From: a virus
Direction: 5' to 3' (one strand)
IMG/VR virus record: IMGVR_UViG_3300025325_000006
Coordinates: 1 to 32,329 of that record
Length of the DNA: 32,329 bases
Shown: positions 641 to 30,668 of the stretch, piece by piece
Layout: every line of letters begins with the position of its first letter
Numbering within the stretch: the first letter of the stretch is position 1
Notes under the pieces: model-generated
The model's input: only the letters and a program-made list of their open reading frames with translations
What the model was told of the DNA's origin: nothing
Databases searched by the model: none
Position numbers and translations under genes: made by a program

Positions 641-648
641 ATAAATAT
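641..648 (-). promoter_or_regulatory. Class II box (ATATTTAT) before the tape measure gene
   Basis: On the minus strand this reads TTTTTTATATTTATAAAAAA and ends 14 nt before the ATG at 626. The same box precedes several structural genes. It may be a promoter -10 element or simply an A/T-rich translation leader. Confidence 0.35.
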
Positions 649-666
649 AAAAAACTATTAATTGTT

Positions 667-1611: not shown

Positions 1612-1619
1612 TAAATAGT
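1612..1619 (-). promoter_or_regulatory. ACTATTTA box before the 311-residue gene
   Basis: The minus strand reads ACTATTTAATAAATAAAATG, placing the box 9 nt before the start at 1602. It matches the -10-like half of the class I motif but lacks the T-rich upstream half, so it is a weak candidate. Confidence 0.3.
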
Positions 1620-11500: not shown

Positions 11501-13096
11501 TTAATTTCTTTGTCCATTAAATTTTGAAGCAAGTTTATAAGAAAAACTATAATTAAATAATTTATCATTTAGAGAATTTTTTACTTCAAAATTTGATTCA
11601 TCTAATATTATTGGTGTCGCTGTTCCATCACTATTAATTACAAATACTTCCGGAGAAGTAATTAATTCTTCTAACCAAACACTTTCCACATCTGAAATCC
11701 AATCAGATGTTACTTTATAAGAATATTGGCCATCAACATCTAAAACAGTGCTTCCACGGTCTCCCAATTGATAATTATAATCAAGGACTTTACGATAAGT
11801 ATTACGAGTAACGCTTATCGTTTTTTTAGAAACTAAATTGAAATTAAAATAATCAAAGCCTCCAAGTCTGTTTAAAAATTGTAATCTAACAGTAGAATAT
11901 TTTCCGCATTTTGTATCAATTAAATAGGTTTTTACTTCTGAAATAGTGCTTCCATTATCTGCATTTAGTGAATATTTATAATCAGTTGAAAGATTTATTG
12001 TAGCTCCGGAATTTGGAAGATTATTTAAATTCCAAATTCCTGATGGAATATGTACAACAGAATCTGAAGTTATACCTGTATTTGCTAAATAATAAGTCTT
12101 AGTTCCACCTGAATTTTGGTAAGTTATAAGTTTCATTCTTGTTGCAGCGCTATAAATTTGCATAAATGATAAAGTTCCTCTATCAGTAGAATTTTTTATA
12201 TAAACTTCCGCTGGCTGATTTGTTAAAAATTTCTTTGTTGACCCTCCCATTAAATAATCTGAATAATTCCAAGAAGGTATTTGCTCATATTGATTTACAC
12301 CATTAAAAGTATAGCCTGAGAAAAAAGTAAGTGCTGAATAAATTGTCACTCCTGTATTTAATGTTCCATATTCCTCACCTATTTTTAAAATATAAGGAAT
12401 CATATGTTTATTTGAATTTGTTGGCTCTACAATGTTTTGAATTCTTGCATCGCATCCTAAATAAGATTCTAATATACGAGCAGGAGAAAATATACAATTT
12501 CCTGTTGAACCTGGTCTTGGTAAAAGCTTTACTCTTGCTTGAGCATTGCCTCCACCTGTGTTTCCAGTAAAAATATCAAATACATATTTGTAATTAGGAA
12601 AGCTATAAAAAATCGATAATACATTAAAATAAATAGGATTATAAACCGGAGCAATAAATCCTTGACTTGCTCCAGTAAAAGATGAAATAATAATACTTGA
12701 ACAATCTTTTACAAAATCTATGTTTGCGGAACCTTGACGAATATTAAAAGTTAAAGTTGCATTTCCAACCGCTGCTCCAATAGCTAAAGAAATACCAGTA
12801 GTTGTAATTGTTGTTGCAGTAGCTGTTCCAAACATAACATCAATAGCAAATGGAGAAGATGCTCCTAAAATATTAACTTCTATTATATGAGAAGTTGATG
12901 TGCCAAAATCAGTAAAAACATTTGTTTGAAATAAAGTATTATCTCCTGGTGAAACATAATTTCCATCTGCTCCATTACTTAATGGATAAGTATCAGAAGG
13001 TGTCCATGCGGCGTTTGCTCCTATACCCCAATTTGTAAATGGGCTTCCTGTACCGTTATCTAAAAGTGTTGGATTTAAAATTGAAATATTTGCCAT
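11501..13096 (-). CDS. Putative minor tail / distal tail protein
   Basis: This 531-residue protein lies directly upstream of the fibre gene, separated by 3 nt, so the two are probably co-translated. The N-terminal ~170 residues look like a beta-sandwich, rich in Thr, Ser and Gly (DNGTGSPFTNWGIGANAAW). The rest has long beta-type segments and a C-terminal part (RKVLDYNYQLGDRGSTVLDV, later SVWLEELITSPEVFV) resembling proteins placed next to fibres in Bacteroidota phages. Its role is inferred from position: a baseplate-like or distal tail component that joins tube and fibre. I recognise no enzyme motif. Confidence 0.55.
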   Translation of the reverse strand: MANISILNPTLLDNGTGSPFTNWGIGANAAWTPSDTYPLSNGADGNYVSPGDNTLFQTNVFTDFGTSTSHIIEVNILGASSPFAIDVMFGTATATTITTTGISLAIGAAVGNATLTFNIRQGSANIDFVKDCSSIIISSFTGASQGFIAPVYNPIYFNVLSIFYSFPNYKYVFDIFTGNTGGGNAQARVKLLPRPGSTGNCIFSPARILESYLGCDARIQNIVEPTNSNKHMIPYILKIGEEYGTLNTGVTIYSALTFFSGYTFNGVNQYEQIPSWNYSDYLMGGSTKKFLTNQPAEVYIKNSTDRGTLSFMQIYSAATRMKLITYQNSGGTKTYYLANTGITSDSVVHIPSGIWNLNNLPNSGATINLSTDYKYSLNADNGSTISEVKTYLIDTKCGKYSTVRLQFLNRLGGFDYFNFNLVSKKTISVTRNTYRKVLDYNYQLGDRGSTVLDVDGQYSYKVTSDWISDVESVWLEELITSPEVFVINSDGTATPIILDESNFEVKNSLNDKLFNYSFSYKLASKFNGQRN

Positions 13097-13108: not shown

Positions 13109-13116
13109 ATAAATAT
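13109..13116 (-). promoter_or_regulatory. Class II box before the 531-residue tail gene
   Basis: The minus strand reads ATATTTATAATAAACAATAAATG, ending 12 nt before the ATG at 13096. Same box as before other structural genes. Confidence 0.35.
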
Positions 13117-13133
13117 AAATTTAATTTATTAGT

Positions 13134-14394: not shown

Positions 14395-14691
14395 TTAATT
14401 ATAAATATTATTTTTTTGTGCTTGTTTTTGTTTTGATTCGAAAAATTGTTCCTTTTCCTTCCAAAAGCTTAAAAGATTTAAAGCAGAAATCCAATTTACT
14501 TTATATATTTCTTCAAACTTTGTTATATCTCCCTGTGCAAGCTTTTCTATTATCGAAAACCAACTCCAACGATTAAAACTTGTATCTATTTGGTCTCCAT
14601 CTTTTGTTGAAAACTCTTCTTGTTCTTCATTTTTATTTTGGATGTTGAAAATTCCACTGAATTGTTTGAGGGTTTTTTCTCTCCAAGCAAA
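14395..14691 (-). CDS. Frameshift extension of the tail assembly chaperone (gpGT-like)
   Basis: This is an open frame without its own start, in the -1 frame relative to the chaperone gene. A run of nine T (minus strand, 14697-14689) lies in the sequence AGTTTTTTTTTGCTTGG, where slipping back one base leads to AWREKTLKQFSGIF, an acidic linker and then RWSWFSIIEKLAQGD, KFEEIYKVNWISALNLL and a stop at 14395. The tail of the frame is rich in Trp and helix-forming residues, like the T domain that recruits the tape measure. The fused product would have about 277 residues against 213 for the unshifted one. The layout matches lambda G/GT. The frame is clearly protein-like, so this is a confident call, though slippage itself is not proved. 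Confidence 0.75.
   Translation of the reverse strand, partial: FAWREKTLKQFSGIFNIQNKNEEQEEFSTKDGDQIDTSFNRWSWFSIIEKLAQGDITKFEEIYKVNWISALNLLSFWKEKEQFFESKQKQAQKNNIYN
14401..14408 (-). promoter_or_regulatory. Class II box before the tail-terminator-like gene
   Basis: The minus strand reads ATATTTATAATTAAATAAATG. It overlaps the end of the chaperone frameshift extension and lies 10 nt before the ATG at 14390. Confidence 0.3.
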
Positions 14692-15227
14692 AAAAAACTA
14701 ATTATATCATAAACATCAGTTATCATAATAAATTTGGATTTTTCATTGATGATTAAATTAATGTTATCCGGATTAAAAGGTTCTATATTTCCATCTGGAA
14801 GTATTCTTCTAAATAAAACTCCAAATGCTATTTCTGTTGGCGTTAAATCAAAAGCTTGTTTATCTTTTAACATAGTTTCAATTGAAATGCTTTCACCAAC
14901 AGTTAATTTTGTGAAATCCTTTTTTATTGTCCATTCTTCATCATCTATTTTAAAAGAAGTTACAGGAACTTTCGAAGTTTTAGGCTCAACATTCATCCAT
15001 TTGAATGAATCCTGTATCTTTTTGAAATCATCCACGTTTATATTAATTGCTATTTTAGAAAATTCAGGATTATTACATAAAAGTGATAATGTTTTTATAA
15101 ATACTTCAATAGAAGAAGAGTTTTTATCCTCTGCAGAATTTAAGATATCAATGTAATTTTTTAAAGTAACTTCATCCCATCCGGAAGGAAATAAAAATTC
15201 TTTATTTTCTATTTTTAAGTTTAGCAT
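14586..15227 (-). CDS. Tail assembly chaperone (gpG-like)
   Basis: This 213-residue protein starts MLNLKIENKEFLFPSGWDEV; the 'P-x-x-W-x-E-(V/L)-T-L' opening is common in Bacteroidota phage proteins of the tail-chaperone position. The unshifted frame ends in a basic, low-complexity tail (KIKMKNKKSFQQKMETK), unlike the rest, whereas the -1 frame after the T9 run continues as a structured protein. This indicates that the basic tail is only the non-shifted terminus. The gene has its own class I promoter motif (15244-15263), suggesting timed expression separate from the terminase. It is assigned by frameshift architecture and context. Confidence 0.7.
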   Translation of the reverse strand: MLNLKIENKEFLFPSGWDEVTLKNYIDILNSAEDKNSSSIEVFIKTLSLLCNNPEFSKIAININVDDFKKIQDSFKWMNVEPKTSKVPVTSFKIDDEEWTIKKDFTKLTVGESISIETMLKDKQAFDLTPTEIAFGVLFRRILPDGNIEPFNPDNINLIINEKSKFIMITDVYDIISFFLLGEKKPSNNSVEFSTSKIKMKNKKSFQQKMETK

Positions 15228-15243: not shown

Positions 15244-15263
15244 TAAATAGTGTGTAAAAAAGT
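15244..15263 (-). promoter_or_regulatory. Class I phage promoter motif before the tail chaperone
   Basis: The minus strand reads ACTTTTTTACACACTATTTA, 16 nt before the ATG at 15227. It matches the eight-copy motif with exactly 12 nt between the starts of its two halves. The flanking TGATTTTAC also resembles the GTAAAATCC decamer in reverse. Confidence 0.65.
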
Positions 15264-15284
15264 AAAATCATACTTTCGTTGATA

Positions 15285-15292
15285 ATAAATAT
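15285..15292 (-). promoter_or_regulatory. Class II box between large terminase and tail chaperone
   Basis: ATATTTAT on the minus strand, 57 nt upstream of the chaperone ATG and upstream of the class I motif. It may be coincidental. Confidence 0.2.
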
Positions 15293-15309
15293 AATTAATG
15301 AAATTTAGT

Positions 15310-16575
15310 TTATTGAAATATAAATGAGCCGGAATATTGATTTTGTTTCATACAATAATAACCAATTGCTAATGACATAATTATATCATCGTGCCCGTAA
15401 TTGGCTTGGTATGTTACATTTCCTTTTTTTGATATTGAATAACCAAATGCTTCCATTTCTGAAATAATATTTGGGTCATTTAACAATTGAATTTTTCCTC
15501 CATTGAAATCATAAATCAAATCATTTATTATTAATGGTTTAGAAGTAGAAGTTGTAGCGAATCCTTCAACTTGATATGCTCCACGTGAAATTAATTGCTC
15601 TATTATTGGTAAACCAAATGAGTTCGATTCTATATAGCACTTACAAACCCGAAATAGGTTAAGTGACGAGACTATTCTACGTAATATCTCATCATTACTT
15701 GTTTGATTAAATCTATCTATATATACAAGCTCTGCTCTTTGATTAAATATAGATATAACAGTAAAGTCATTCTTAAATCCTACATCGATTCCCGCGAAGT
15801 AAGTTTCTGAATCACGTGGTCCGGATAACTTATTTAACTTCGTAAAATCCTTTATGTTTTTAAATAAACTACCACCATCGACAAACTCTGCCATATATTC
15901 TTGTTCGAAAATATCGATAGGCAGGATTTTTCTTTGTTGCTCAATAAACTCGATATTTGCATACGGATTATCAATATATGTAGTTTTAAAACTTTTAAAA
16001 GATTTATTCTCAGGGTCTTTTCCTTGTAAAAAAAGTTTATAGAAAAAATTCTTTCCACGAGGAGTTGAACCAAAGATTACTTTTTTTCCGCGAACTAATA
16101 GTGTGGGTGCCAATATAGTTGTCCAAGTCTCCTCATAAACAAATGCACACTCATCCATTAATAAATGTGTATTACTGTAGCCTCGAAGAGAATTTGTGCT
16201 TGCCGCTGACCTAAAAAGTATAACCGAACCATTAGTAAATGCTATTTCACTATCGCCAGCCTGTATTTTATAGGATTTAACATATGGTAAATGTATAATT
16301 GAATTTAAAATCTGCTTATATATCTTTTTTGATTGAGAATCTACCGGAGAAACAACCATTATATGTTGGTCGTTTAGATTTAAGGCATAATATACTGCCA
16401 TATTTTGCATCAGAAATGTCTTTCCTGATTGTCTACTTGCATTATAGACTATATATTTGGTAGTCAGGTCTATACAAGTTTTTACTATCTCTTTTTGAGC
16501 CTCATAAGGCGTGAAAAGTTTTAATGTTGTTTTTTGATTTGGTTCCATAAATGTATGTGGCTCGTGTGTGAGCAT
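15310..16575 (-). CDS. terL: Terminase large subunit
   Basis: This 421-residue protein is the DNA-packaging motor. The ATPase part has a Walker A-type loop SRQSGKT (residues 47-53), a Walker B LLMDE (138-142) and a coupling motif GSTPRG. The nuclease part has AGIDVGFKND (first acidic site), IESNSFG, and a late GHDD motif followed by a hydrophobic helix; these are the RNase H-like nuclease acidic residues. Length is normal for the family. The start at 16575 gives MLTHEPHTF; an internal ATG at 16548 (MEPNQKTT) is also possible. A class I promoter motif ends 7 nt before the first ATG, so the mRNA may be leaderless or use the internal start. It works with the small subunit at 17460-17906. Confidence 0.95.
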   Translation of the reverse strand: MLTHEPHTFMEPNQKTTLKLFTPYEAQKEIVKTCIDLTTKYIVYNASRQSGKTFLMQNMAVYYALNLNDQHIMVVSPVDSQSKKIYKQILNSIIHLPYVKSYKIQAGDSEIAFTNGSVILFRSAASTNSLRGYSNTHLLMDECAFVYEETWTTILAPTLLVRGKKVIFGSTPRGKNFFYKLFLQGKDPENKSFKSFKTTYIDNPYANIEFIEQQRKILPIDIFEQEYMAEFVDGGSLFKNIKDFTKLNKLSGPRDSETYFAGIDVGFKNDFTVISIFNQRAELVYIDRFNQTSNDEILRRIVSSLNLFRVCKCYIESNSFGLPIIEQLISRGAYQVEGFATTSTSKPLIINDLIYDFNGGKIQLLNDPNIISEMEAFGYSISKKGNVTYQANYGHDDIIMSLAIGYYCMKQNQYSGSFIFQ

Positions 16576-16582
16576 ATATTAT

Positions 16583-16602
16583 TAAATAGATTAAAAAAAA
16601 AT
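16583..16602 (-). promoter_or_regulatory. Class I phage promoter motif before terL
   Basis: The minus strand reads ATTTTTTTTTAATCTATTTA, a variant of the class I motif with the standard 12-nt register, ending 7 nt before the ATG at 16575. Confidence 0.55.
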
Positions 16603-16769
16603 AATATATGTTGCTGATTAATAGGATTTTACATATTAATGTTAATATATGACTCAATTTTTAGGTTCTCTTCAGAGCTTGACTGGGCGAGGCTCCAAAA
16701 AAAGATTTACGTAAACCCAGCTTCACTCAGTAAAATCCTGATGAGCTTATATAAATTCAAAACCAGAAC

Positions 16770-16804
16770 GTAAAATCCTGTTGATGGCTCCAATATCCAG
16801 AATA
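16770..16804 (+). repeat. 35-bp direct repeat, copy 1
   Basis: Starts GTAAAATCCTGTTGATGGCT and matches 17219-17253 at 34 of 35 positions. It contains one decamer. Confidence 0.9.
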
Positions 16805-16905
16805 TACCAAGGGCTCTTCAGTAAAATCCTACAGCTCTTCAGCACAATCCTATAGTTTTACTTGCCTAATCCAATAATGTTAATAACTTTTTATAACTTT
16901 TAAAA

Positions 16906-16935
16906 CTCATCATACCTCATCATACCTCATCATAC
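16906..16935 (+). repeat. Three tandem copies of CTCATCATAC
   Basis: Exact 10-bp units at 16906, 16916 and 16926, with a 9-base match again at 17129. One helical turn per unit would put all copies on one face of the DNA. Confidence 0.85.
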
Positions 16936-16976
16936 ACTTTAAGTTAAGGTTCACTTAATGAGTAACTACTCTAAGT

Positions 16977-16996
16977 AGGATTTTACGTAAAATCCT
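16977..16996. promoter_or_regulatory. Perfect 20-bp palindrome, putative operator
   Basis: AGGATTTTACGTAAAATCCT, two decamers head to head. Four bases further on is ACTATTTATAA (17000-17010), identical to the -10-like half of the class I motif on the plus strand. This looks like a dimer-binding operator next to a promoter that would read rightward, antisense to the 51-residue gene and terS. Confidence 0.6.
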
Positions 16997-17218
16997 TTTA
17001 CTATTTATAACCCACACATACTGGAATATCGATTGTTGATAACTTTATTTATACTTGCGTATAACCAGTGCATTTACGAATGTTTGTAAATAATTTGTGG
17101 CACGATTATTGGCTGGCATAGTTATTGCCTCATCATAAACTTAGAGTTAAATACTTACTTAATGAGTTACTACATCTAAATAGGATTTTACTTCGGCCTT
17201 TGGCACCAGTCTCTAATC

Positions 17219-17253
17219 GTAAAATCCTGTTGATGGCTCCAACATCCAGAATA
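17219..17253 (+). repeat. 35-bp direct repeat, copy 2
   Basis: Second copy of the repeat at 16770-16804, with a single T-to-C difference. Confidence 0.9.
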
Positions 17254-17265
17254 CTATAATATTTC

Positions 17266-17421
17266 TCACTCAGTTTTGGATTTTTCAATAAAGTTATTTG
17301 TTTGTGTTTGAATGTTTTGAATTAGTTCGAAACTTATTTTTGCTGGCAATTCAGCAATTCCAGCTAAAATGATGTTAACTTGTTCAAGTGTTAGGTCTAA
17401 TTTAATTTCTTTACTTTTCAT
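17266..17421 (-). CDS. Small conserved phage protein, 51 residues
   Basis: ATG at 17421 and TGA at 17266-17268 give a 51-residue helical protein starting MKSKEIKLDLTLEQVNIILA, followed by GIAELPAK and LIQNIQTQTNNF. The pattern 'L-T-x-E-x-V-N-x-I-L-x-x-(I/L)-x-x-L-P' then 'L-I-x-x-I-Q-x-Q' recalls a small uncharacterised protein found repeatedly in phages of Bacteroidota and other hosts. It lies 38 nt downstream of terS on the same strand. The coding call rests on that pattern and on position. No biochemical role is known to me. Confidence 0.65.
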   Translation of the reverse strand: MKSKEIKLDLTLEQVNIILAGIAELPAKISFELIQNIQTQTNNFIEKSKTE

Positions 17422-17459
17422 AGTTTTTTAAATTTATTAATTTATTGTTTTAATTCATA

Positions 17460-17906
17460 TTATTCTTCCGAATCGGATATTTCATCTTTAAAATAATTTT
17501 CAATTTCTTTATCAGTTAAAAGTTTTGGAACATCAAGGTCTGGAAACTTTAATTCTAAATTTAGAGATTGAACCTGGATTTTACTTGCTTCGTTGAAGCC
17601 CAGCATTCTATTTATTATCTCTAAGGCTTTTAAACTGGCCATGGAGTTTTGGTTCTTCTGAGCGTTTTTGATATCTAAAAGGTCTTGAAGTATAGATTCT
17701 CGGGTAATCTGGGATTTTAGAGCCAGCTGAGCCTTTTGGCGAGTTATTTCTTGTTGAATGCTATCTTTTGCAAGTAAATCAGAAGATAAAGATCTTGCAC
17801 TATCATAACTAACTCCTTCATATGCAGACATATAAGAATGAACAGCAACTCCTGTTTTAATATACTCATCAATGAATGCTTGTTGTTTTATGTTAATTAC
17901 TTCCAT
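17460..17906 (-). CDS. terS: Terminase small subunit
   Basis: This 148-residue protein has the typical small-terminase plan. The N-terminal part is a helix-turn-helix DNA-binding domain (KQQAFIDEYIKTGVAVHSYM, then DSARSLSSDLLAKDSI). A central helical stretch follows (ITRESILQDLLDIKNAQKNQ, then ALEIINRMLGF), likely for oligomerisation. The C-terminal tail is acidic (KEIENYFKDEISDSEE) and may contact the large subunit. It recognises the packaging site and loads TerL. The non-coding block and the 51-residue gene separate it from terL. Two GTAAAATCCT decamers lie directly upstream, so its expression may be controlled by the factor that binds them. Confidence 0.85.
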   Translation of the reverse strand: MEVINIKQQAFIDEYIKTGVAVHSYMSAYEGVSYDSARSLSSDLLAKDSIQQEITRQKAQLALKSQITRESILQDLLDIKNAQKNQNSMASLKALEIINRMLGFNEASKIQVQSLNLELKFPDLDVPKLLTDKEIENYFKDEISDSEE

Positions 17907-17922
17907 TTTATGTTAATGTTGT

Positions 17923-17954
17923 GTAAAATCCTGTTATTTGTATTGTAAAATCCT
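17923..17954 (-). promoter_or_regulatory. Pair of GTAAAATCCT sites upstream of terS
   Basis: Copies at 17923-17932 and 17945-17954 are in the same orientation with starts 22 bp apart, about two helical turns. They lie 16-48 nt before the terS ATG at 17906, where a regulator of terS would be expected to bind. Confidence 0.6.
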
Positions 17955-17970
17955 GTTTATTGTGCTTATT

Positions 17971-18348
17971 CTACTTATTCTTATTTTTTTTAGCATTAAG
18001 TTTATCTAAAGCAGTATTAAAGTTCTTTTTAACCGGTGGTGGAAAAGTATGTGTGATTGTACCATCATTATCCACCTCCGACACAGGAAAATCCTGAACC
18101 TCCAATGGAGTAGGATTGGTTAAACGTTTTTCTATACTTTCTTTATGAAAAAGATAAAATGTATTTAATTCTTTCTTTACGTCCCTTAAGTTAGAGGTAC
18201 ATGTAACACAAGTTGGGCAGCGAGGGTTTATATATTTTCTAACCAAATTAACTACTTCGATTGCCTCAACATTTGTATAATCATATTTTCGATGATGCAA
18301 TTTCATTTTGTCAAATTCTTCTTGTGTTACTTCTTCCGGATTGCTCAT
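17971..18348 (-). CDS. Hypothetical protein with a CxxCxxC cluster
   Basis: This 125-residue protein is not one I can name. Its middle carries CPTCVTC just after KYINPR, a compact cysteine cluster that could bind zinc or be redox-active. A helical segment (LRDVKKELNTFYLFHKESIE) follows, and the tail is basic (KLNAKKNKNK). It follows the membrane protein gene with a 3-nt gap, so the two are probably co-expressed. The N-terminal half is acidic and helical (EEVTQEEFDKMK). Nothing in the sequence decides its role. Confidence 0.65.
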   Translation of the reverse strand: MSNPEEVTQEEFDKMKLHHRKYDYTNVEAIEVVNLVRKYINPRCPTCVTCTSNLRDVKKELNTFYLFHKESIEKRLTNPTPLEVQDFPVSEVDNDGTITHTFPPPVKKNFNTALDKLNAKKNKNK

Positions 18349-18351
18349 AAT

Positions 18352-18651
18352 TTATAAATAAGTTTTAAATGAATTAATAATTTTATCAAAAGACATGGCA
18401 ATTATTGCACCGGTTATTGCATCAAATATCATTATATCATCGAATTTAAATGCCCCCCAGAATAATAAAAGCCAGAATGTAACACATTTTATACAAGAAA
18501 TGCCATTAGCTATATAATCTGAGAAAATAAAAGGTTTAATGTATTTAGTTAAAAAACTTTGTAATGGCTCAAATGAAGTAATAAACCAAGCAATTAAAAA
18601 TCCTTTTAGAATAAAAGTAAAATCCAGGAAAAACGGAATAGTTTGTGTCAT
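18352..18651 (-). CDS. Small membrane protein with an SCxxCxxFW motif
   Basis: This 99-residue protein has about three hydrophobic segments: FFLDFTFILKGFLIAWFITS near the N terminus, TFWLLLFWGAF in the middle, and ITGAIIAMSF near the C terminus. The motif ISCIKCVTFW faces the start of the middle segment. A cysteine pair followed by an aromatic at a membrane boundary resembles DUF1360-like small membrane proteins, but this is a weak likeness. Its place between a sigma-like factor and a terminase-side gene does not fit a holin, and a holin is present elsewhere (24849-25319). Function unknown. Confidence 0.65.
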   Translation of the reverse strand: MTQTIPFFLDFTFILKGFLIAWFITSFEPLQSFLTKYIKPFIFSDYIANGISCIKCVTFWLLLFWGAFKFDDIMIFDAITGAIIAMSFDKIINSFKTYL

Positions 18652-18660
18652 TGTATTTAA

Positions 18661-18668
18661 ATAAATAT
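18661..18668 (-). promoter_or_regulatory. Class II box before the membrane protein gene
   Basis: The minus strand reads ATATTTATTTAAATACAATG, 9 nt before the ATG at 18651. Confidence 0.25.
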
Positions 18669-18675
18669 AAATTAA

Positions 18676-19275
18676 TTAAGTTTGTTTTTGTATTTCTTTT
18701 TGTATTATTTCTCTGGCATTTTTTACATAAGAATGTACGGCCATTAAACTTATTCCTGTTTTTTTAGCAATTTTTCTATATGTTAAGTTTTCGTTATAAT
18801 ACATTCTAAATAACTTAAAGTCTCGTATAAGAATAGGAATTTCTTTTGTTTTTTGTTCAACAATTGAGTCAATTAGGTTTATTTTATTTTGAATTTTATC
18901 CTGCAATTCAATTTCAAATTCAGTTTCCTCAGTTATTTCCTCTATTTGGAAGTTTTCAATATCTTCGTATAAACCAAAACCATCTTTTTTTCTCATTTGA
19001 TAATGCCAACGACTTGTTGAGCTGCATACATTATTTTTAATCATTTTTATGTAAATCCATTTAAAGAAACCATTATTCCAATAAGTTAATACTTTTGGCA
19101 TTTCACATATAGATAAGTGAAGCATTTGTCTAAATTCATTTCTTTCATCTTTTTTAGGAAGAAACTTATGAAGTATTTCCTCATAAAAAGAATCATTTGA
19201 TATTAAATAAAACATTTTAGTTAAAGTATCTGCAGTTAAAGTATTAATAGTGCTTGCTGTTATAGTTATTTTCAT
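18676..19275 (-). CDS. Phage sigma-70-like factor
   Basis: This 199-residue protein has the outline of a divergent sigma factor. Residues about 50-105 look like a region 2 remnant (FRQMLHLSICEMPKV, then FKWIYIKMIKNNVCSSTSRW); the 'N-x-x-x-S-S-T-S' stretch followed by basic residues is a hallmark of sigma-like proteins in Bacteroidota phages. The C terminus is a good region 4 helix-turn-helix (YNENLTYRKIAKKTGISLMA, then VHSYVKNAREII). It overlaps the upstream gene by an ATGA, so translation is coupled. It is the second sigma-like protein of the window and may direct host polymerase to a later promoter class. Assignment is firm for fold, tentative for the promoters used. Confidence 0.75.
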   Translation of the reverse strand: MKITITASTINTLTADTLTKMFYLISNDSFYEEILHKFLPKKDERNEFRQMLHLSICEMPKVLTYWNNGFFKWIYIKMIKNNVCSSTSRWHYQMRKKDGFGLYEDIENFQIEEITEETEFEIELQDKIQNKINLIDSIVEQKTKEIPILIRDFKLFRMYYNENLTYRKIAKKTGISLMAVHSYVKNAREIIQKEIQKQT

Positions 19276-19616
19276 TTATTTAAATACATTGTGTTAAGTC
19301 CTGTTTTTATATCTAAAATATCTTTTTCCATAACCGGTAAAAACCAATTTGTTTTATAGCACATTTTTATAAATTCAGCTTCATTTTGATTAATTACTTT
19401 AAATATTTTTGCACTTAACTCATAACATTCGTCTAGTTCGCTATTCTGGAGATGAATAAAATGATTTTTCAGTTGGGTAATATAGTCTTCAACGAGAAAT
19501 TCTTTGGATTTTTCAAGGAAAAGCAATTCCGCTATCCATCCAGCATTATCATCATTATTTTCTTCGAGATATGCATCATATGCTTTATGAAGAGTTCTTA
19601 TTTGTTTATTTGTCAT
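19272..19616 (-). CDS. Hypothetical helical protein in the sigma/nuclease operon
   Basis: This 114-residue protein is mostly helical and acidic, with several aromatic residues (MTNKQIRTLHKAYDAYLEEN, later NAGWIAELLFLEKSKEF). It overlaps the following sigma-like gene by 4 nt (ATGA) and lies 2 nt after the putative nuclease gene, so the three are one translationally coupled operon driven by the class I motif at 20139-20158. I recognise no domain. It could be a cofactor or inhibitor acting on transcription, but nothing in the sequence shows this. Confidence 0.65.
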   Translation of the reverse strand: MTNKQIRTLHKAYDAYLEENNDDNAGWIAELLFLEKSKEFLVEDYITQLKNHFIHLQNSELDECYELSAKIFKVINQNEAEFIKMCYKTNWFLPVMEKDILDIKTGLNTMYLNK

Positions 19617-19618
19617 AA

Positions 19619-20119
19619 TTACTTTTCTGATATTTTAAATGAACCGTGACTTCCTATTTCGTAATCCGAATACTTTATTATTTCAATTGGATTTTTAAGT
19701 TTTGCTACATATTTATCGATTAAAGTTTTATCGACTGAAGACTCGGGTAAAAGTTTCCATTCAAATACATATTTTTTTATATCTTTTAATTCATAAATAG
19801 CCACACCATCTTTAGTAAAATTAATATAAAGCAACCTTATTTTAATATCTTTAGCACGCATAATTGATTCCGCTTTGCGTTTTATAGCTGCGAACTTTAT
19901 GAATTCACAATAAGGTCCATATTTAACGGAAGTGTGTAAATCACAATCCATCCTGACTTTTATTTCTGCCATGCAATACGTATTTCCACTCCTGAGCTTT
20001 ACGTCATTACAACTTCCTTTCTGTTCGTACACAGATTTGGTTATTTCTGGCTTTATAAATTTTAATTTATCAAATAAACTTTGTCCAATTAATTCTGATT
20101 CATCAAAAAAATCTATCAT
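19619..20119 (-). CDS. Putative PD-(D/E)XK nuclease
   Basis: This 166-residue protein contains D39, then E52-I-K54 in the stretch CMAEIKVRMD. The spacing and the strand-like context (hydrophobic residues around ExK) match the PD-(D/E)XK nuclease core. Further on, FIKFAAIKRKAESIMRA could be the helix that often follows, and IKIRLLYINFTKDGVAIYEL the later strands. It is the first gene of an operon with a class I promoter and a sigma-like factor, so it may be an early protein: host-DNA degradation, recombination or resolution are all possible. The motif could be fortuitous; a structural search would decide. Confidence 0.5.
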   Translation of the reverse strand: MIDFFDESELIGQSLFDKLKFIKPEITKSVYEQKGSCNDVKLRSGNTYCMAEIKVRMDCDLHTSVKYGPYCEFIKFAAIKRKAESIMRAKDIKIRLLYINFTKDGVAIYELKDIKKYVFEWKLLPESSVDKTLIDKYVAKLKNPIEIIKYSDYEIGSHGSFKISEK

Positions 20120-20138
20120 ATTGTTTTTGTTTTTTATG

Positions 20139-20158
20139 TAAATAGTAAATAAAAAAGT
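20139..20158 (-). promoter_or_regulatory. Class I phage promoter motif before the nuclease/sigma operon
   Basis: The minus strand reads ACTTTTTTATTTACTATTTA, ending 19 nt before the ATG at 20119. A full match to the motif. Confidence 0.65.
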
Positions 20159-20168
20159 AAAAGCTGGT

Positions 20169-20843
20169 TTATTTAAATTGTTTAGCTAATTTTGAGTTCT
20201 TTTTTAATAATTCAAGCATAGTTTTAAGTCGCCATTTACAAAGAGAATCTGATATTCCTATTTTTTTACTTATTTCATTTGTTGATTTTAATTTTTCAAA
20301 ACCAAACAATCCAAATCTATAGTATAAAATTATTTTCCAGTCTTCTTTTTTTATAAGTTTATTTATAGCTCGGTATAACACATCAAAATCCCTTGAAGTA
20401 TCTTCTTCTTCAGCTTGTGTAATGTCATCTATTATTTCTTGTCCGGAAGTACAAATAGGAAGTTCTTCTTCTTCAGTTTCTGATTCTGGATTAGGTGCAC
20501 AGTACTCTTTATTCTTTTTAAAATAATCTGATAATATGTTTTGCGGAATTCTTATAGTTCTTTTGTTTTGCATTAACCAAGTTAACATCTCTCCTCTTAC
20601 GTGTATTTTTGCGTATGTGATGAAATATACTCCTTTTTCTGGACAAAAATCTTGCATTGCATTGTAAAGTCCAATATTTCCCATTTGAATTAAGTCATCA
20701 AGGTATTCTGGATTATGAAGTGCATTAGCTATTTTATATATGAACCACTTATTTTTAGACAATAGTTTTTCGAAATCCTTTTTTATTACAAGGCTCACAT
20801 TTTCTTCGTTTAATTCTTTAAGTTGTTCTTTAGTGTATTTCAT
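20169..20843 (-). CDS. Phage RNA polymerase sigma factor (sigma-70 family)
   Basis: The protein has 224 residues when begun at the ATG at 20843 (MKYTKEQLKELNEENV). A longer frame from 20909 exists, but its first 22 residues are hydrophobic and would overlie the class I motif at 20850-20869, so I prefer the shorter start. Region 2 is clear: LDDLIQMGNIGLYNAMQDF, then YFITYAKIHVRGEMLTWLMQ and IRIPQNI. Region 4 is near the C terminus: LKSTNEISKKIGISDSL, then LKTMLELL. Between them is an acidic linker (ESETEEEELPIC). It should bind host core polymerase and choose phage promoters. The class I motif in front of its own gene allows self-activation. Confidence 0.85.
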   Translation of the reverse strand: MKYTKEQLKELNEENVSLVIKKDFEKLLSKNKWFIYKIANALHNPEYLDDLIQMGNIGLYNAMQDFCPEKGVYFITYAKIHVRGEMLTWLMQNKRTIRIPQNILSDYFKKNKEYCAPNPESETEEEELPICTSGQEIIDDITQAEEEDTSRDFDVLYRAINKLIKKEDWKIILYYRFGLFGFEKLKSTNEISKKIGISDSLCKWRLKTMLELLKKNSKLAKQFK

Positions 20844-20849
20844 TTTACT

Positions 20850-20869
20850 TAAATAGTACAGGAAAAAGT
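20850..20869 (-). promoter_or_regulatory. Class I phage promoter motif before the sigma factor gene
   Basis: The minus strand reads ACTTTTTCCTGTACTATTTA, identical over all 20 bases to the plus-strand copy at 22890-22909. It ends 6 nt before the ATG at 20843, implying a nearly leaderless mRNA. A GTAAAATCC sequence (20868-20876) overlaps its upstream end. Confidence 0.7.
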
Positions 20870-21185
20870 AAAATCCAATTCTATTAACAAAGTCGTTGGT
20901 TATTAACAAAATCGGAAATACTGTATTTAAATAGAATTATAGGACAGTTAATAAAAAAGGGAAAAAGATTTTCTTCATTGAAGTTAAAAAAAAACTTATT
21001 TTTTATTGAAGTAAAAAGGAAAATATAAGTTTAGTTGGTTTTATGCGTTTTAAGAGATTATCTAACAAATGATATAGGATTATTCCATTGAAGGTTAGAT
21101 TTGTTTTTATAGTTCTTGTGTGTCTGGTGGAAAATCCTTTTTTCTTATTGAAGTTAAGGAAGAAATTTGTTTTGTTTTAAAATAG

Positions 21186-21232
21186 GAACGGCACTAATAA
21201 TTTTGAATTAATGCCGTTCTTTTGTTTTTTTT
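21186..21232 (+). terminator. Intrinsic terminator (plus strand)
   Basis: GAACGGCA (21186-21193) pairs with TGCCGTTC (21212-21219), with further inner pairs, followed by TTTTGTTTTTTTT. No plus-strand gene lies upstream, which is the main hint of a non-coding transcript. Confidence 0.65.
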
Positions 21233-21247
21233 GCTACAATTTTAATG

Positions 21248-21278
21248 GAACCGGCTTTTCGGAGAAAAAGCCGAGTTC
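21248..21278 (-). terminator. Strong hairpin after the initiator gene
   Basis: GAAC-CGGCTTTT pairs with AAAAGCCG-a-GTTC around a 6-nt loop (12 bp with one bulge). It lies 25 nt past the initiator stop codon. No clear U-run follows on the minus strand, so it may stabilise the mRNA end instead of terminating. Confidence 0.45.
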
Positions 21279-21303
21279 TTATTCAAATATTAGATTTACT
21301 TTT

Positions 21304-22350
21304 TTATTGAATTAAGATTACTTCTCCTTCTGTTGAATTAAGATTAAAGTATACTTTTATATCAGCAATAATAGTTTGCCTTTCATTTGTATTTAATCTT
21401 GTTTCTTTTGTTTCTATATCAAATATTATTTTATTGAAAAGAATATTCCTTTCTACAAAAGATAAAGAAGAGATTATTTCAGGTGGATTTTGAGTAGTTA
21501 CTTCATTCCAGATATATTCTTCTGTTCTTATTACATTATTTTCAATTGCAGGCTCTTTTTTAGTTATTGTATATTTATTTTCTTGAACCAATTCTTTTTT
21601 TTCAGCTGAATTATAAATATGTTTATTTACTCTTTTTGTTAAAATAGATTTATCTGTTGAATTAATAGTATTTGATTTATCTATATACGATTTTATTTCA
21701 TTGAATAAAGGAAGTTTTGTTTCTAAAGCATCAATTGTTTCTCTTGTATGTTTTTCAATAAATCCTGCGAAAAACTTTTCAGCTCTTTTTTCACTTATCT
21801 GTTCCGGAGTTAAAATCTCTTTTTCAATTAATTCAACTGGCTCTTCTTTTTTAATTTCAACTTCAAATTCCGGAATTTCAATTTTCTTGTTTAGGTTAAT
21901 ATTATTTATGTTAGTCTTGTTTAAATTAATATTATTTAAGTTAGTCTTATTTATACCTCGATTTACCATAGATGGTTCAGCCATAGATGGTTCAGCCATA
22001 GATGGTTCAGCCATAGATGGTAAATCGCTATATGGATTTAGCTCGAAAGACCACTGGATTTGCCCTTTTTCATTTTTAGTTCTAACTCTTTTTGCGTAGT
22101 TTTTAGCTATTAATTTGTTATAAATTGCCCTCTGAATTAGTTCAGAATTAGTGCTTCTTTTATAGATTTCTGTGATAAAAACCTTCCATTCTTTTGAATT
22201 AGAAATTAGAATAGAAAGTAATCCTTTTTCTTCAAGACTTAAAGTTTTATTATTTAAGATTGAGTTAGGAACTTTAGTAAAACCCTTTAGGTTTGTTTTA
22301 GATTTTTTTGTGGTTTTTGTGGCAATATTGCCAGATGTTGGTGTTTCCAT
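21304..22350 (-). CDS. Replication initiator with N-terminal winged helix
   Basis: This 348-residue protein resembles phage replication initiators. Residues about 20-110 form a winged-helix domain (GFTKVPNSILNNKTLSLEEK, GLLSILIS, KEWKVF, later LIAKNYAKRVRTKNEKGQIQ). A low-complexity hinge follows: three SMAEP repeats, then NKTNLNNINL-type repeats. The C-terminal ~190 residues are charged and helical and may contact host helicase or loader. The hinge DNA carries four 15-bp repeats and a 30-bp AT-rich repeat, like the iterons within lambda O. It is read from a class I promoter through a structured leader. No polymerase, helicase or primase is visible, so replication must lean on host proteins. 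Confidence 0.75.
   Translation of the reverse strand: METPTSGNIATKTTKKSKTNLKGFTKVPNSILNNKTLSLEEKGLLSILISNSKEWKVFITEIYKRSTNSELIQRAIYNKLIAKNYAKRVRTKNEKGQIQWSFELNPYSDLPSMAEPSMAEPSMAEPSMVNRGINKTNLNNINLNKTNINNINLNKKIEIPEFEVEIKKEEPVELIEKEILTPEQISEKRAEKFFAGFIEKHTRETIDALETKLPLFNEIKSYIDKSNTINSTDKSILTKRVNKHIYNSAEKKELVQENKYTITKKEPAIENNVIRTEEYIWNEVTTQNPPEIISSLSFVERNILFNKIIFDIETKETRLNTNERQTIIADIKVYFNLNSTEGEVILIQ
21887..21946 (-). repeat. AT-rich 30-bp direct repeat within the initiator gene
   Basis: Two copies (21887-21916 and 21917-21946) differ at only a few bases; a third begins at 21947 and is partial. They encode the Asn-rich hinge. Their AT content and position next to the iterons suggest a DNA-unwinding element. 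Confidence 0.75.
21959..22027. repeat. Iteron-like 15-bp repeats, candidate replication origin
   Basis: CCATAGATGGTTCAG begins at 21966, 21981 and 21996, with a fourth, partial copy at 22011. Each holds the inverted pair ACCAT/ATGGT or CCAT/ATGG. The array is closed by perfect inverted flanks: CGATTTACCAT (21959-21969) and ATGGTAAATCG (22017-22027). Within lambdoid phages, similar repeats inside the initiator gene are the origin. Here this is inference, since the repeats also encode SMAEP units. Confidence 0.6.
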
Positions 22351-22395
22351 TTTTATTTACCTTTTTAATTGTTTTTTAACCTTTTTGTTTTTGTG

Positions 22396-22440
22396 CCTGG
22401 GTAGGTAAACCAACGGTAATTACTCCGCTGGAAACCCAGG
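22396..22440 (-). ncRNA. Structured leader of the initiator mRNA
   Basis: Outer stem CCTGGGT/ACCCAGG (22440-22434 with 22402-22396) encloses a 7-bp inner stem CCAGCGG/CCGTTGG (22431-22425 with 22416-22410) with an 8-nt loop. The single imperfect inner pair is G-U in the minus-strand RNA but A-C in the plus strand, so the fold belongs to the initiator transcript. It lies between the class I promoter and the ATG at 22350. It could be a protein- or RNA-sensing control element. Confidence 0.55.
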
Positions 22441-22471
22441 AAACTGAATTTTTAGTTCTGTTTAGTATTAG

Positions 22472-22491
22472 TAAATAGTATATAAAAAAAT
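22472..22491 (-). promoter_or_regulatory. Class I phage promoter motif before the initiator gene
   Basis: The minus strand reads ATTTTTTTATATACTATTTA, with T in place of C at the second base. It would give a leader of roughly 110 nt including the hairpin at 22396-22440, the longest leader of this class. Confidence 0.6.
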
Positions 22492-22600
22492 AAATACTGG
22501 GTTAAACATAAATTTTTAAATGAAAAAGTCAATATTTCAACCAAAACGTTAATCATTTGTAAATAAATATTTTTATTAACACGTTAATAGAACTAACTCA

Positions 22601-22610
22601 GTAAAATCCT
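22601..22610 (+). promoter_or_regulatory. GTAAAATCCT decamer upstream of the plus-strand cluster
   Basis: An exact copy, 18 bp upstream of the class I motif at 22629-22648, in a position where it could activate or repress that promoter. Confidence 0.5.
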
Positions 22611-22628
22611 ATAAATAAAACCTAATCA

Positions 22629-22648
22629 ATAATTTTGTTGTCTATTTA
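22629..22648 (+). promoter_or_regulatory. Class I-like promoter motif before the 74-residue gene
   Basis: Reads ATAATTTTGTTGTCTATTTA, keeping the 12-nt register and CTATTTA but with a weaker upstream half. It ends 8 nt before the ATG at 22657. Confidence 0.45.
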
Positions 22649-22656
22649 ATAGAATA

Positions 22657-22881
22657 ATGACTGAAGAAGAAATATCAAAAACAAGGCTAAACTATCTTAA
22701 AGATAAGTTTGATGAAAAATATTCAATTGAATCATTATCCAGATTAGTTGGAATTTCACGAATTAAGAAGTTTTCTGAAATAATCAGTGCAATATATTTA
22801 AAAGAAAAATCTCTTTTAGATGAAGATAGAAAAAAATTGGGTCGTTTTATTAGTAAATATTTTTATCCAAATAGAGAATAA
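22657..22881 (+). CDS. Small helical protein, possible DNA-binding regulator
   Basis: This 74-residue protein opens MTEEEISKTRLNYLKDKFDE and contains SIESLSRLVGISRIKKFSEI, which could form a helix-turn-helix. The C terminus is basic and aromatic (KLGRFISKYFYPNRE). It is the first gene of the plus-strand cluster, divergent from the replication initiator, a place where phages often keep regulators. The helix-turn-helix suggestion is only a visual one, and I can assign no family. Confidence 0.55.
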   Translation: MTEEEISKTRLNYLKDKFDEKYSIESLSRLVGISRIKKFSEIISAIYLKEKSLLDEDRKKLGRFISKYFYPNRE

Positions 22882-22889
22882 TAATTTTT

Positions 22890-22909
22890 ACTTTTTCCTG
22901 TACTATTTA
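22890..22909 (+). promoter_or_regulatory. Class I phage promoter motif before the 105-residue gene
   Basis: ACTTTTTCCTGTACTATTTA, 25 nt before the ATG at 22935. Identical to the sigma-gene copy at 20850-20869 on the other strand. Confidence 0.7.
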
Positions 22910-22934
22910 TAAATAAACGATAAAACTAAAAATT

Positions 22935-23252
22935 ATGATAGATGTGTGTTATTATGACCTCTCGCTTGATAAACAAAATTCCTGCTTGATTGCTGTGAAG
23001 AATAAATCTTCTTATATTCCTAAAAAAGGAGAGATAATTAAAATTTCACTCCCTTATTGCGAACATATAACTTATATTGATGATTATAAAATGGGAGAGT
23101 CAGTTAAGTTTATTGTTGATGTTGTTGAATATAACCTTGATAGTAATGAAATAGATGATATTGAAGAAAAAAATACAGAAATGGTATGTGTTTATATTAC
23201 CAGATTAACTGAATATCTTAAAAGAAAGGTTTTAGTTGAAAAAATAATTTAA
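22935..23252 (+). CDS. Hypothetical small beta-rich protein
   Basis: This 105-residue protein is one I do not recognise. It begins MIDVCYYDLSLDKQNSCLIA, followed by SYIPKKGEIIKISLPYCEHI and then alternating strands (KFIVDVVEYNL, EMVCVYITRL). The 'P-K-K-G-E-I-I' turn and later strands suggest a compact SH3- or OB-like beta barrel. It is acidic in the middle (NEIDDIEEKNTE). It has its own class I promoter motif and is followed by another, so each gene of this cluster may be a separate transcription unit. Confidence 0.65.
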   Translation: MIDVCYYDLSLDKQNSCLIAVKNKSSYIPKKGEIIKISLPYCEHITYIDDYKMGESVKFIVDVVEYNLDSNEIDDIEEKNTEMVCVYITRLTEYLKRKVLVEKII

Positions 23253-23267
23253 AATAATTCTGATTTA

Positions 23268-23287
23268 ACTTTTTCCTTAACTATTTA
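23268..23287 (+). promoter_or_regulatory. Class I phage promoter motif before the disrupted small gene
   Basis: ACTTTTTCCTTAACTATTTA, 11 nt before the ATG at 23299. Full match to the motif. Confidence 0.65.
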
Positions 23288-23298
23288 TAATAAAAAAA

Positions 23299-23599
23299 AT
23301 GAATAACTGTAGTGATATACCATTAAACTGTTTTTTTGAAACAAAAAAAGATTTTAAAAATCTCGTTCAAACACGGATAGTAATATTTGAAAAGTATAAT
23401 GAAAAGATTGAAAAGTATAATGAAAAGATAAAAACAGAGTATTTTATTTTGAAACAAAGAATATATTCAAACACGGATAGTAATATTTGAAAAGTATAAT
23501 GAAAAGATAAAAACAGAGTATTTTGAAATTAAAATGATGGAACGTCAAAAACAACTTAGTGACTTTTTAGATAACTTACCGACAAAACCAAGAAATTAA
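23299..23599 (+). pseudogene. Small coiled-coil gene broken by a 100-bp out-of-frame duplication
   Basis: The open frame from 23299 stops at 23490 after 63 residues (MNNCSDIPLNCFFETKKDFK to IYSNTDSNI). A segment starting TTCAAACACGGATAG at 23366 recurs at 23466. The offset of 100 bp is not a multiple of three, so the second copy is read in a different frame. Removing 100 bp restores a 66-residue protein ending EIKMMERQKQLSDF, LDNLPTKPRN, with stop at 23597-23599. The intact form would be a small charged helical protein (EKYNEKIKTEYF). Either the population carries a broken allele or the assembly joined variants. Function unknown. Confidence 0.6.
23366..23523 (+). repeat. Partial duplication with 100-bp offset
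   Basis: The two copies share TTCAAACACGGATAGTAATA and continue through GAAAAGATAAAAACAGAG. The left copy also contains a short internal duplication of GAAAAGTATAATGAAAAGAT. About 20 bases of unrelated sequence separate the copies. Confidence 0.85.
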
Positions 23600-23969: not shown

Positions 23970-23997
23970 GTTTATTGAAAAAAATTTACTATCTTTG
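23966..23997 (+). promoter_or_regulatory. Host-type Bacteroidota promoter before the first lipoprotein gene
   Basis: TTTG (23966-23969) and TATCTTTG (23990-23997) are separated by 20 nt, a good fit to the -33 TTTG / -7 TAnnTTTG consensus of the Bacteroidota primary sigma factor. It predicts a start near 24003 and a leader of about 45 nt. Confidence 0.8.
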
Positions 23998-24048: not shown

Positions 24049-24405
24049 ATGAAAAAGTACATTTTAATGTTGGGAATGATAATTTTTTTATTATCTTCTT
24101 GTAAAAAAGAAAAAATAGTAGTAGTTCCTACTCATACTATGGAAATTGAAATAACAAGAGCAAATACTCCTGGATATTATACAATTAATGGAGGTAATCA
24201 AATTAAAATCGGTTATGTTAATTCATCTCCCCAATTAATAACTTTCTCAGCAAAAAAAGGTGATGTTATTTTTTGTCATATAAGTAATCAAGTTTATGGA
24301 GGAGCAAATTATAATTTATATTTAAAAGAAGATGGAAATATAGTTATAAATAATCATTATTATTATACTGATAATAGTGGTGTTATAAATTATACAGTTT
24401 TGTAA
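24049..24405 (+). CDS. Phage-encoded lipoprotein (moron-like)
   Basis: This 118-residue protein has a lipoprotein signal peptide: MKKYILMLGMIIFLLSSC, with Cys18 as the lipid-bearing residue, then KKEK. The mature part is a small beta-rich domain (THTMEIEITRANTPGYYTIN, later QLITFSAKKGDVIFCHIS). It is read against the surrounding late genes, from a host-type promoter and with its own terminator, the layout of a moron expressed independently of the lytic programme. Phage lipoproteins often shield receptors or block superinfection, which is a possible but unproved role here. It should be in the inner or outer membrane leaflet facing the periplasm or surface. Confidence 0.75.
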   Translation: MKKYILMLGMIIFLLSSCKKEKIVVVPTHTMEIEITRANTPGYYTINGGNQIKIGYVNSSPQLITFSAKKGDVIFCHISNQVYGGANYNLYLKEDGNIVINNHYYYTDNSGVINYTVL

Positions 24406-27104: not shown

Positions 27105-27530
27105 TTAATTATAAATATATAAACTTGTTGCACCAGTATATTGTGTTGTTATATTATAAAGAGAACTTCCGGATAATAAAACTTTACCAGATTCAATATA
27201 ACCATCAGAATTTGCATTACTTAATGTTACTCCTGATAAATCAATATTTGTTTGACCAGTCATTTGATAAATTTTATATTGATAATAGCCAGGTATTTCT
27301 AAATGTATTGTTCCAGCTGTTAAATTTTGAGTAACAGCCGGTCCTTCTGTTATTGAAAATTCATTATATCGTTCAGTATTTGAACTTATATCAGGAGCAG
27401 TGAAAAACATTGATGATTGATTATCATCTGAAATAAAATTAAAAAGATAATAAGTACTACCTGTTAAAGTTGTTAGCTCGGAAAGAGTTAAAATTACATT
27501 TGTTGTAGCAGATTTGTTTAAATAAATCAT
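27105..27530 (-). CDS. Putative structural protein upstream of the portal gene
   Basis: This 141-residue protein has a beta-rich pattern: MIYLNKSATTNVILTLSELT, then YYLFNFISDDNQSSMFFTAP, then RYNEFSITEG and LEIPGYYQYKIYQMTGQTN. The combination 'Y-Y-L-F-x-F-x-S-D-D' and 'E-I-P-G-Y-Y-x-Y-x-I-Y' looks like a small virion protein found in several Bacteroidota phages. Its exact place in the particle is unknown; a head-decoration or neck role fits the context. It lies 2 nt before the portal gene and downstream of a terminator. Confidence 0.6.
   Translation of the reverse strand: MIYLNKSATTNVILTLSELTTLTGSTYYLFNFISDDNQSSMFFTAPDISSNTERYNEFSITEGPAVTQNLTAGTIHLEIPGYYQYKIYQMTGQTNIDLSGVTLSNANSDGYIESGKVLLSGSSLYNITTQYTGATSLYIYN
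27111..27118 (-). promoter_or_regulatory. Class II box before the portal gene
   Basis: The minus strand reads ATATTTATAATTAATTATGG, with the box ending 8 nt before the ATG at 27102. Confidence 0.35.
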
Positions 27531-27560: not shown

Positions 27561-27568
27561 ATAAATAT
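27561..27568 (-). promoter_or_regulatory. Class II box before the 141-residue structural gene
   Basis: TTTTTATATTTATTAATATA on the minus strand, 30 nt before the ATG at 27530 and 30 nt past the terminator at 27599-27626. This spacing suits a promoter that restarts transcription after termination. Confidence 0.45.
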
Positions 27569-27593
27569 AAAAAGAACTCCAATGTACATTAAT

Positions 27594-29919: not shown

Positions 29920-29927
29920 ATAAATAT
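29920..29927 (-). promoter_or_regulatory. Class II box before the scaffold gene
   Basis: AATTATATTTATTATTATAA on the minus strand, 28 nt before the ATG at 29891. Confidence 0.35.
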
Positions 29928-29948
29928 AATTGTGTGTTTTTTGTACAA

Positions 29949-30636: not shown

Positions 30637-30644
30637 ATAAATAT
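30637..30644 (-). promoter_or_regulatory. Class II box before the prohead protease gene
   Basis: The minus strand reads CTTTTATATTTATAATTATG, with the box 4 nt before the ATG. This is too close for a normal -10 element, so it may be a translation leader. Confidence 0.3.
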
Positions 30645-30660
30645 AAAAGTGATTTTTTAG

Positions 30661-30668
30661 TATATTTG
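30661..30668 (+). promoter_or_regulatory. Host-type -7 element before the second lipoprotein gene
   Basis: TATATTTG matches TAnnTTTG, 51 nt before the ATG at 30720. No good TTTG is found about 20 nt further upstream, so the promoter is weaker than that at 23966-23997. Confidence 0.5.

Follow-up and report, generated by a model that had tools for sequence, protein, structure and literature searches.

The described promoter systems closest to the one considered here include: (i) the late promoters of phage 7-11, which have the form GTAAtg-(16)-aCTA and are read by the phage sigma factor gp47, with starts 6-9 bp away (PMC8948821), (ii) the middle/late promoters of phiEco32, which have the form tAATGTAtA and are read by gp36 (PMC8948821), (iii) the promoters of T4, of which the middle class carries a MotA box centred at -30 and the late class operates via gp55/gp33 (PMC6024815), and (iv) the primary-sigma promoters of Bacteroidetes, with the box TAnnTTTG (PMC9723704). 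Phage sigma factors with promoters of their own are already known; among open-licence papers, none was found on a phage-sigma promoter system in a Bacteroidetes phage. The subject here is a 20-bp motif, ACTTTTT-N5-ACTATTTA (class A), of IMG/VR virus record IMGVR_UViG_3300025325_000006, analysed over a stretch of 32,329 nt (the window) that also encodes a sigma factor. The class A set is real and conserved, with an unusual internal geometry, and its members are considered likely to act as the promoters of a single phage regulon, at which the host core RNA polymerase would start transcription with the phage sigma factor (20169-20843) bound to it.

Class A motif and its rarity

A preliminary description of the window listed eight class A copies, all of which were recovered at the same coordinates and on the same strands. 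The exact pattern accounts for five of them, and a reversed control pattern has no matches. When relaxed to fit all eight, the pattern has 8 matches genome-wide, versus a mean of 0.07 (maximum 1) in 200 dinucleotide-preserving genome shuffles. As the relaxed pattern was derived from those same sites, the shuffle test is flattered and leave-one-out scoring is the fairer test. With a leave-one-out matrix on both strands, seven copies each outscore every other genome position; the copy at 22629 on the plus strand (ATAATTTTGTTGTCTATTTA), which retains only CTATTTA, is equalled or bettered at 40 other positions. The firm copies number seven, with one weak copy (22629) in addition. The genome-wide matrix scan that the preliminary description had called for, run with a matrix from all eight copies, gave no good false matches, with 11.9 bits at the best other position, 15.5 at 22629 and at least 19.2 at the other seven. 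The claim that the two halves always start 12 nt apart holds for the seven firm copies but finds no support in the register at 22629. The twins on opposite strands, at 20850 (minus) and 22890 (plus), share 20 of 20 bases as described, and 24 when flanks are included.

All eight copies are indeed intergenic and oriented toward the next gene; positions at which a 20-mer is fully intergenic make up 8% of the genome. Between the motif and the start codon lie 6, 8, 11, 16, 19, 25, 37 and 121 nt. As would be expected of a phage-sigma regulon, a repeated, oriented, intergenic motif stands before several phage genes and is absent inside genes. Sites, rarity, position and orientation are, in this respect, established features. 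On the minus strand, ACTTTTTTACACACTATTTA (15244..15263) lies 16 nt before the gene that follows terL (14586-15227) and is kept before the matching gene of the related IMG/VR fragments L007-L010, while ATTTTTTTTTAATCTATTTA (16583..16602) precedes terL itself, 37 nt from its likely start. That start is placed at 16545 rather than 16575, since the TerL of a relative starts MEAKTTL; no clear equivalent of this copy was found before terL in the relatives. ACTTTTTTATTTACTATTTA (20139..20158, minus) is 19 nt before gene 19619-20119, which is followed by the genes for a region-4 protein and TerS; ACTTTTTCCTGTACTATTTA (20850..20869, minus) is 6 nt before the sigma gene; and ATTTTTTTATATACTATTTA (22472..22491, minus) is 121 nt before a replication-initiator-like gene (21304-22350). 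On the plus strand, the weak copy ATAATTTTGTTGTCTATTTA (22629..22648), the second ACTTTTTCCTGTACTATTTA (22890..22909) and ACTTTTTCCTTAACTATTTA (23268..23287) stand 8, 25 and 11 nt before the short genes 22657-22881, 22935-23252 and 23299-23490, respectively. The targets thus comprise the sigma and initiator genes, the 19619 cluster (which continues into the genes for the region-4 protein and TerS), terL and the gene that follows it, and three short genes read rightward. Genes for head, tail fibre and lysis have no full class A copy ahead of them. Just before gene 667-1602, at 1612..1619 (minus), ACTATTTA is present but the upstream half is not.

The class A motif departs from the host consensus TTTG/TAnnTTTG, as the preliminary description had held: in every copy an A replaces the final G and a C (in AC or TC) replaces the A of TA. 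Where the host box would have TA, two bases and TTTG at -12 to -5, the copies read ACTATTTA or TCTATTTA. Host-like -7 boxes are present on the plus strand before two lipoprotein-like genes, as TATCTTTG (23990..23997; gene 24049-24405) and TATATTTG (30661..30668; gene 30720-31166); TAnnTTTG elsewhere in the genome falls mostly within genes. A further host-like box, TAATTTTG (22630-22637, plus), overlaps the weakest class A copy, such that the 22629 site may be a combined host/phage (early) promoter.

Phage sigma factor and region-4 protein

The presumed reader of the motif is a sigma factor with regions 2 and 4 (20169..20843, minus), its identity established by matches to Pfam, TIGR02937 and PDB entries. 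The protein scores 35.6 bits with Pfam Sigma70_r2 (cut-off 24), at which the homologue of fragment L008 scores 29.8, and matches TIGR02937 over positions 2-163 of 165 with 80.6 bits (cut-off 42.9), indicative of a complete protein from region 2 to region 4. With the Pfam region-4 models, the L008 sigma reaches 22.7 versus a cut-off of 24.1, and the window sigma matches HTH_24 only, below cut-off. The best PDB match is RpoS (1.9e-14). In the alignment to RpoS, WWIRQ of region 2.3/2.4 corresponds to IHVRG in the window sigma and to YHIRG in that of L008. These positions of sigma-70 proteins touch the -10 element; thus, both phage sigmas share changes at -10-contacting positions. An AlphaFold model of the sigma built from two sequences has a mean predicted local distance difference test score of 44.6, too poor for use.

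A second sigma-like protein has region 4 only (18676..19275, minus; Pfam Sigma70_r4_2 above cut-off). Its sole homologue in the collections searched is 58% identical and encoded at L008:2287-2874. The protein is a possible late regulator.

Two 14-bp direct repeats (TATTAACAAAGTCG and TATTAACAAAATCG, 19 nt apart) lie at 20882-20914, directly upstream of the sigma promoter, and are a possible operator. A hairpin of 13 pairs with a T-rich tail behind it (21186-21219) lies between the genes for the initiator and the sigma and is likely a terminator that separates the two transcripts.

Conservation in related phages

The four fragments L007-L010 encode TerL proteins about 75% identical to that of the window. 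L008 additionally encodes the sigma factor (39% identical) and the region-4 protein (58%), in the same gene order. The class A motif is found 6 nt ahead of the L008 sigma gene, a gap equal to that of the window, and in each of the four fragments it also stands before the gene that follows terL. In ungapped comparison, a 28-bp form of the motif is 79% and 82% identical at the two matching genes, as opposed to 29-30% for the DNA from -150 to -30 and at most 64% for other 28-bp upstream segments even with free offset. At the level of sequence, such islands of conservation are independent evidence of function. They extend the motif to GATTTTA[C/T]TTTTT-N5-ACTATTTA. Across ten sites (window and relatives), CTATTTA is invariant, and within ACTTTTT the first A and the final TTT are likewise constant; 7 of 10 sites have a G at six bases above the motif (p 1.3e-4 before correction). 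Motif and sigma are conserved together at two matching genes of one related phage group.

Searches of viral contigs with the sigma alone and with a two-member sigma alignment returned no relatives beyond L008. A scan of the same contigs with the extended motif returned 53 stretches, including the phage's own fragment; the others are mostly chance-like single matches or local repeats, without a close sigma relative, and one had a weak sigma match (23% identity). One candidate, L026 (26% guanine-cytosine content, one good copy before a gene), was dropped, as neither a sigma nor a second copy was found there. Genes resembling GIY-YIG-type homing endonucleases were noted by eye at L008:3157-3816 and L009:2735-3280, the latter with a host-type box, TATCTTTG; the window is without them.

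Promoter model and alternative explanations

That the class A copies are promoters is strongly supported, as judged from sequence, by where they lie and which way they point, by their scarcity elsewhere and by their conservation at the matching genes of the relative. The promoter interpretation and the mismatch to the host box, both put forward in the preliminary description, thus stand; an eighth copy equal to the others and a classical -35/-10 pair of halves do not, the latter because the halves start 12 nt apart. CTATTTA, which never varies and lies near the gene, is the obvious candidate for the -10. The pairing of motif and sigma is well motivated; it is plausible and favoured, since the sigma gene is present, encodes regions 2 and 4 and carries the motif, as does the homologue of the relative.

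In the proposed mechanism, with promoter function in vivo, reader, start sites and timing all predicted, ACTATTTA would act as the -10 element melted by sigma region 2, and RNA would start about 5-7 nt downstream. The T-rich GATTTTA[C/T]TTTTT would occupy about -32 to -20, with its T-rich half near -26 to -20, and may add affinity through contact with sigma region 4, through DNA bending or with the help of an accessory protein. The phage sigma would activate its own gene in positive feedback. Given the 6-nt gap and an RNA start 5-7 nt past CTATTTA, the sigma mRNA would be practically leaderless in both phages, with its start at or within about two bases of the ATG; in Flavobacterium psychrophilum, leaderless mRNAs are uncommon (5.5%; PMC9723704). 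All of the class A targets would form the regulon. As these are regulatory, replication and packaging genes rather than structural genes, class A would behave like a middle class, with the structural genes served via a second element, TATATTTAT, and the two lipoprotein genes via host-type promoters. A tentative, rather doubtful extension is that this 32-kb Bacteroidetes phage runs a complete cascade, in which a self-amplifying sigma reads a compact bipartite promoter (a T-rich element 12 nt above ACTATTTA) to give a near-leaderless sigma mRNA, and the region-4-only protein then redirects the polymerase to the TATATTTAT promoters of structural genes.

Several points weigh against reading of the motif by the phage sigma. 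The 12-nt spacing is unlike that of a normal sigma-70 promoter. Just one diverged relative has both sigma and motif. No exact host box was found before the sigma gene on its strand; class A is the sole clear promoter there, so that the model lacks a clear source for the first sigma molecules.

The most serious rival, though unlikely, is a MotA-like system of middle promoters, in which a host or phage sigma reads CTATTTA and a separate phage activator binds the upstream GATTTTAC, centred near -28. The geometry fits, as GATTTTAC ends 12 bp before TATTTA, and the strong excess of the 9-mer GGATTTTAC, the top word in both phages, hints at a protein dedicated to binding it. By contrast, exact copies of GATTTTAC occur at only 3 of 10 sites, the T-run being better conserved, and no MotA- or AsiA-like gene was identified in the genome, where a complete phage sigma is present. 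It is distinctly improbable that the sites are a variant read by a host primary or alternative sigma, with the phage sigma serving something else. The core nnTTT is common to class A and TAnnTTTG and the genome has host-type boxes, but every copy has A for the final G and C for the A of TA, and the motif family was found only in phages carrying this sigma in the viral-contig scan. Nor do the copies fit the F. psychrophilum motifs TAnnTTTG, TAnnTTGY, CGT box and sigma-54 (PMC9723704).

An operator role, in which a phage regulator would bind the direct repeat ACTWTTT-N5-ACTWTTT to repress or activate nearby promoters and the motif itself would not be a promoter, is improbable. The strongest copies do read ACT[T/A]TTT in both halves, and a 12-nt period would place these near the same helix face; yet the second half is invariant and the first variable, the direction to the gene is fixed in 10 of 10 sites, and the gap to the start codon falls as low as 6-8 nt, as fits a -10 element, with no other promoter element evident alongside. 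Closeness to start codons in most copies would also suit a non-transcriptional signal (translation initiation, RNA processing, or a replication/packaging repeat). Bacteroidetes are without Shine-Dalgarno sequences and use A-rich leaders. The motif, however, is T-rich rather than A-rich, its gap ranges from 6 to 121 nt and most genes of the genome are without it, making this explanation extremely improbable. A T4-like late box, with CTATTTA taken on the other strand, was rejected as well, since every copy points the opposite way. A generic sigma-70 promoter scan found fewer sites in the genome than in shuffles and is uninformative here. Transcription from class A promoters by the phage sigma, if true, would supply a phage sigma with its full cognate promoter set in a phylum with unusual promoters, where phage transcription is seemingly little mapped. 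The sigma and the 28-bp promoter could then be used in Bacteroidetes as a compact orthogonal pair for expression. Start sites are predicted by the motif to within a few bases and are, thus, directly testable.

Other elements and gene content

The TATATTTAT element (class B) occurs 12 times in the genome; 7 copies stand at no more than 60 nt before genes in sense orientation, and none stands so in antisense orientation. Most of the genes so preceded are structural (portal, protease, tape-measure-like, 29262, 27105 and 11501). Copies on the minus strand are located at 641..649 (before the tape-measure-like gene starting at 626), 13109..13117 (before gene 11501-13096), 18661..18669 (before gene 18352-18651), 27111..27119 (before the portal gene), 27561..27569 (before gene 27105-27530), 29920..29928 (before gene 29262-29891) and 30637..30645 (before the protease gene, 29949-30632); another lies at 15285-15293. 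The element also occurs at L010:3628, before an apparent match of gene 11501-13096. TATATTTAT may be a late promoter class. In shuffled upstream regions, the best 9-mer of any kind reaches 9 (mean 4.7); the class claim is only moderate, as A-rich words are also common before genes.

With both strands counted, GGATTTTAC (fuller form AGGATTTTAC) exceeds expectation by far more than any other 9-mer: the window has 18 copies versus 0.4 expected when the fibre gene is left out, L008 has 16 versus 0.2 and L009 has 15 versus 0.14, whereas four unrelated phage loci have none. In the window, 11 of 20 copies fall in 16624-17953, with further copies at 8104, 9682, 14182, 15842, 18617, 20868, 22601, 23917 and 25724, and in L008 and L009 copies occur throughout. 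The word is concentrated between terS and terL in both phages; its possible roles include a pac site bound by the terminase, a Chi-like site and a site for an activator.

The preliminary description spoke of a circle, correctly: the record ends overlap by 127 bp, so that the phage genome has 32,202 bp and is either circular or circularly permuted. Recognised minus-strand genes encode TerS, TerL, portal, an XkdF/S78-type protease, an M15 peptidase (endolysin) and a holin, together with the replication-initiator-like protein, the sigma factor and the region-4-only protein. Within the initiator-like gene, a tandem 15-bp repeat (CCATAGATGGTTCAG, 21951-22040) encodes the repeated peptide SMAEP and is a possible set of iterons. 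The virus is small, and the TAnnTTTG boxes before two lipoprotein-like genes, along with the lack of Shine-Dalgarno sequences, point to a host that is probably a Bacteroidetes bacterium. TerL and the region-4 protein had no relatives in the bacterial genome collection; the capsid-position protein, portal, region-4 protein and the DNA of the region had no match in the phage collection.

Comparison with known systems

The class A system resembles that of phage 7-11 in having about eight sites per genome, a bipartite AT-rich consensus, ACTA in the downstream element, a sigma with region 4 and a presumed use of the host core polymerase. At 16 bp above TATTTA there is also a weak CnGATT, a distance near the 16-bp spacing found in 7-11 promoters (PMC8948821). 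The two systems differ in the upstream element and its spacing, as the strong elements here start 12 nt apart, in their targets, which here are regulatory, replication and packaging genes plus the sigma gene rather than structural genes, and in the (inferred) host phylum. phiEco32 pairs a phage sigma with its own promoter set, middle genes included, as is proposed here; its promoter is a single element and its sigma lacks region 4, whereas here the promoter is bipartite and region 4 is present. As in the T4 middle class, an upstream box would lie near -30, the T4 late class having a separate phage-specific -10, and the small sigma-related co-factor of T4 is comparable in kind to the region-4-only protein. 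Unlike in T4, no MotA, AsiA, gp55 or gp33 homologue was identified, and the sequence elements are unrelated. With the primary-sigma promoters of Bacteroidetes, class A shares an AT-rich -7 region close to the gene and, as predicted, short leaders, but differs at the defining positions, where C replaces A and A replaces G; in this genome the host type is found before the two lipoprotein genes.

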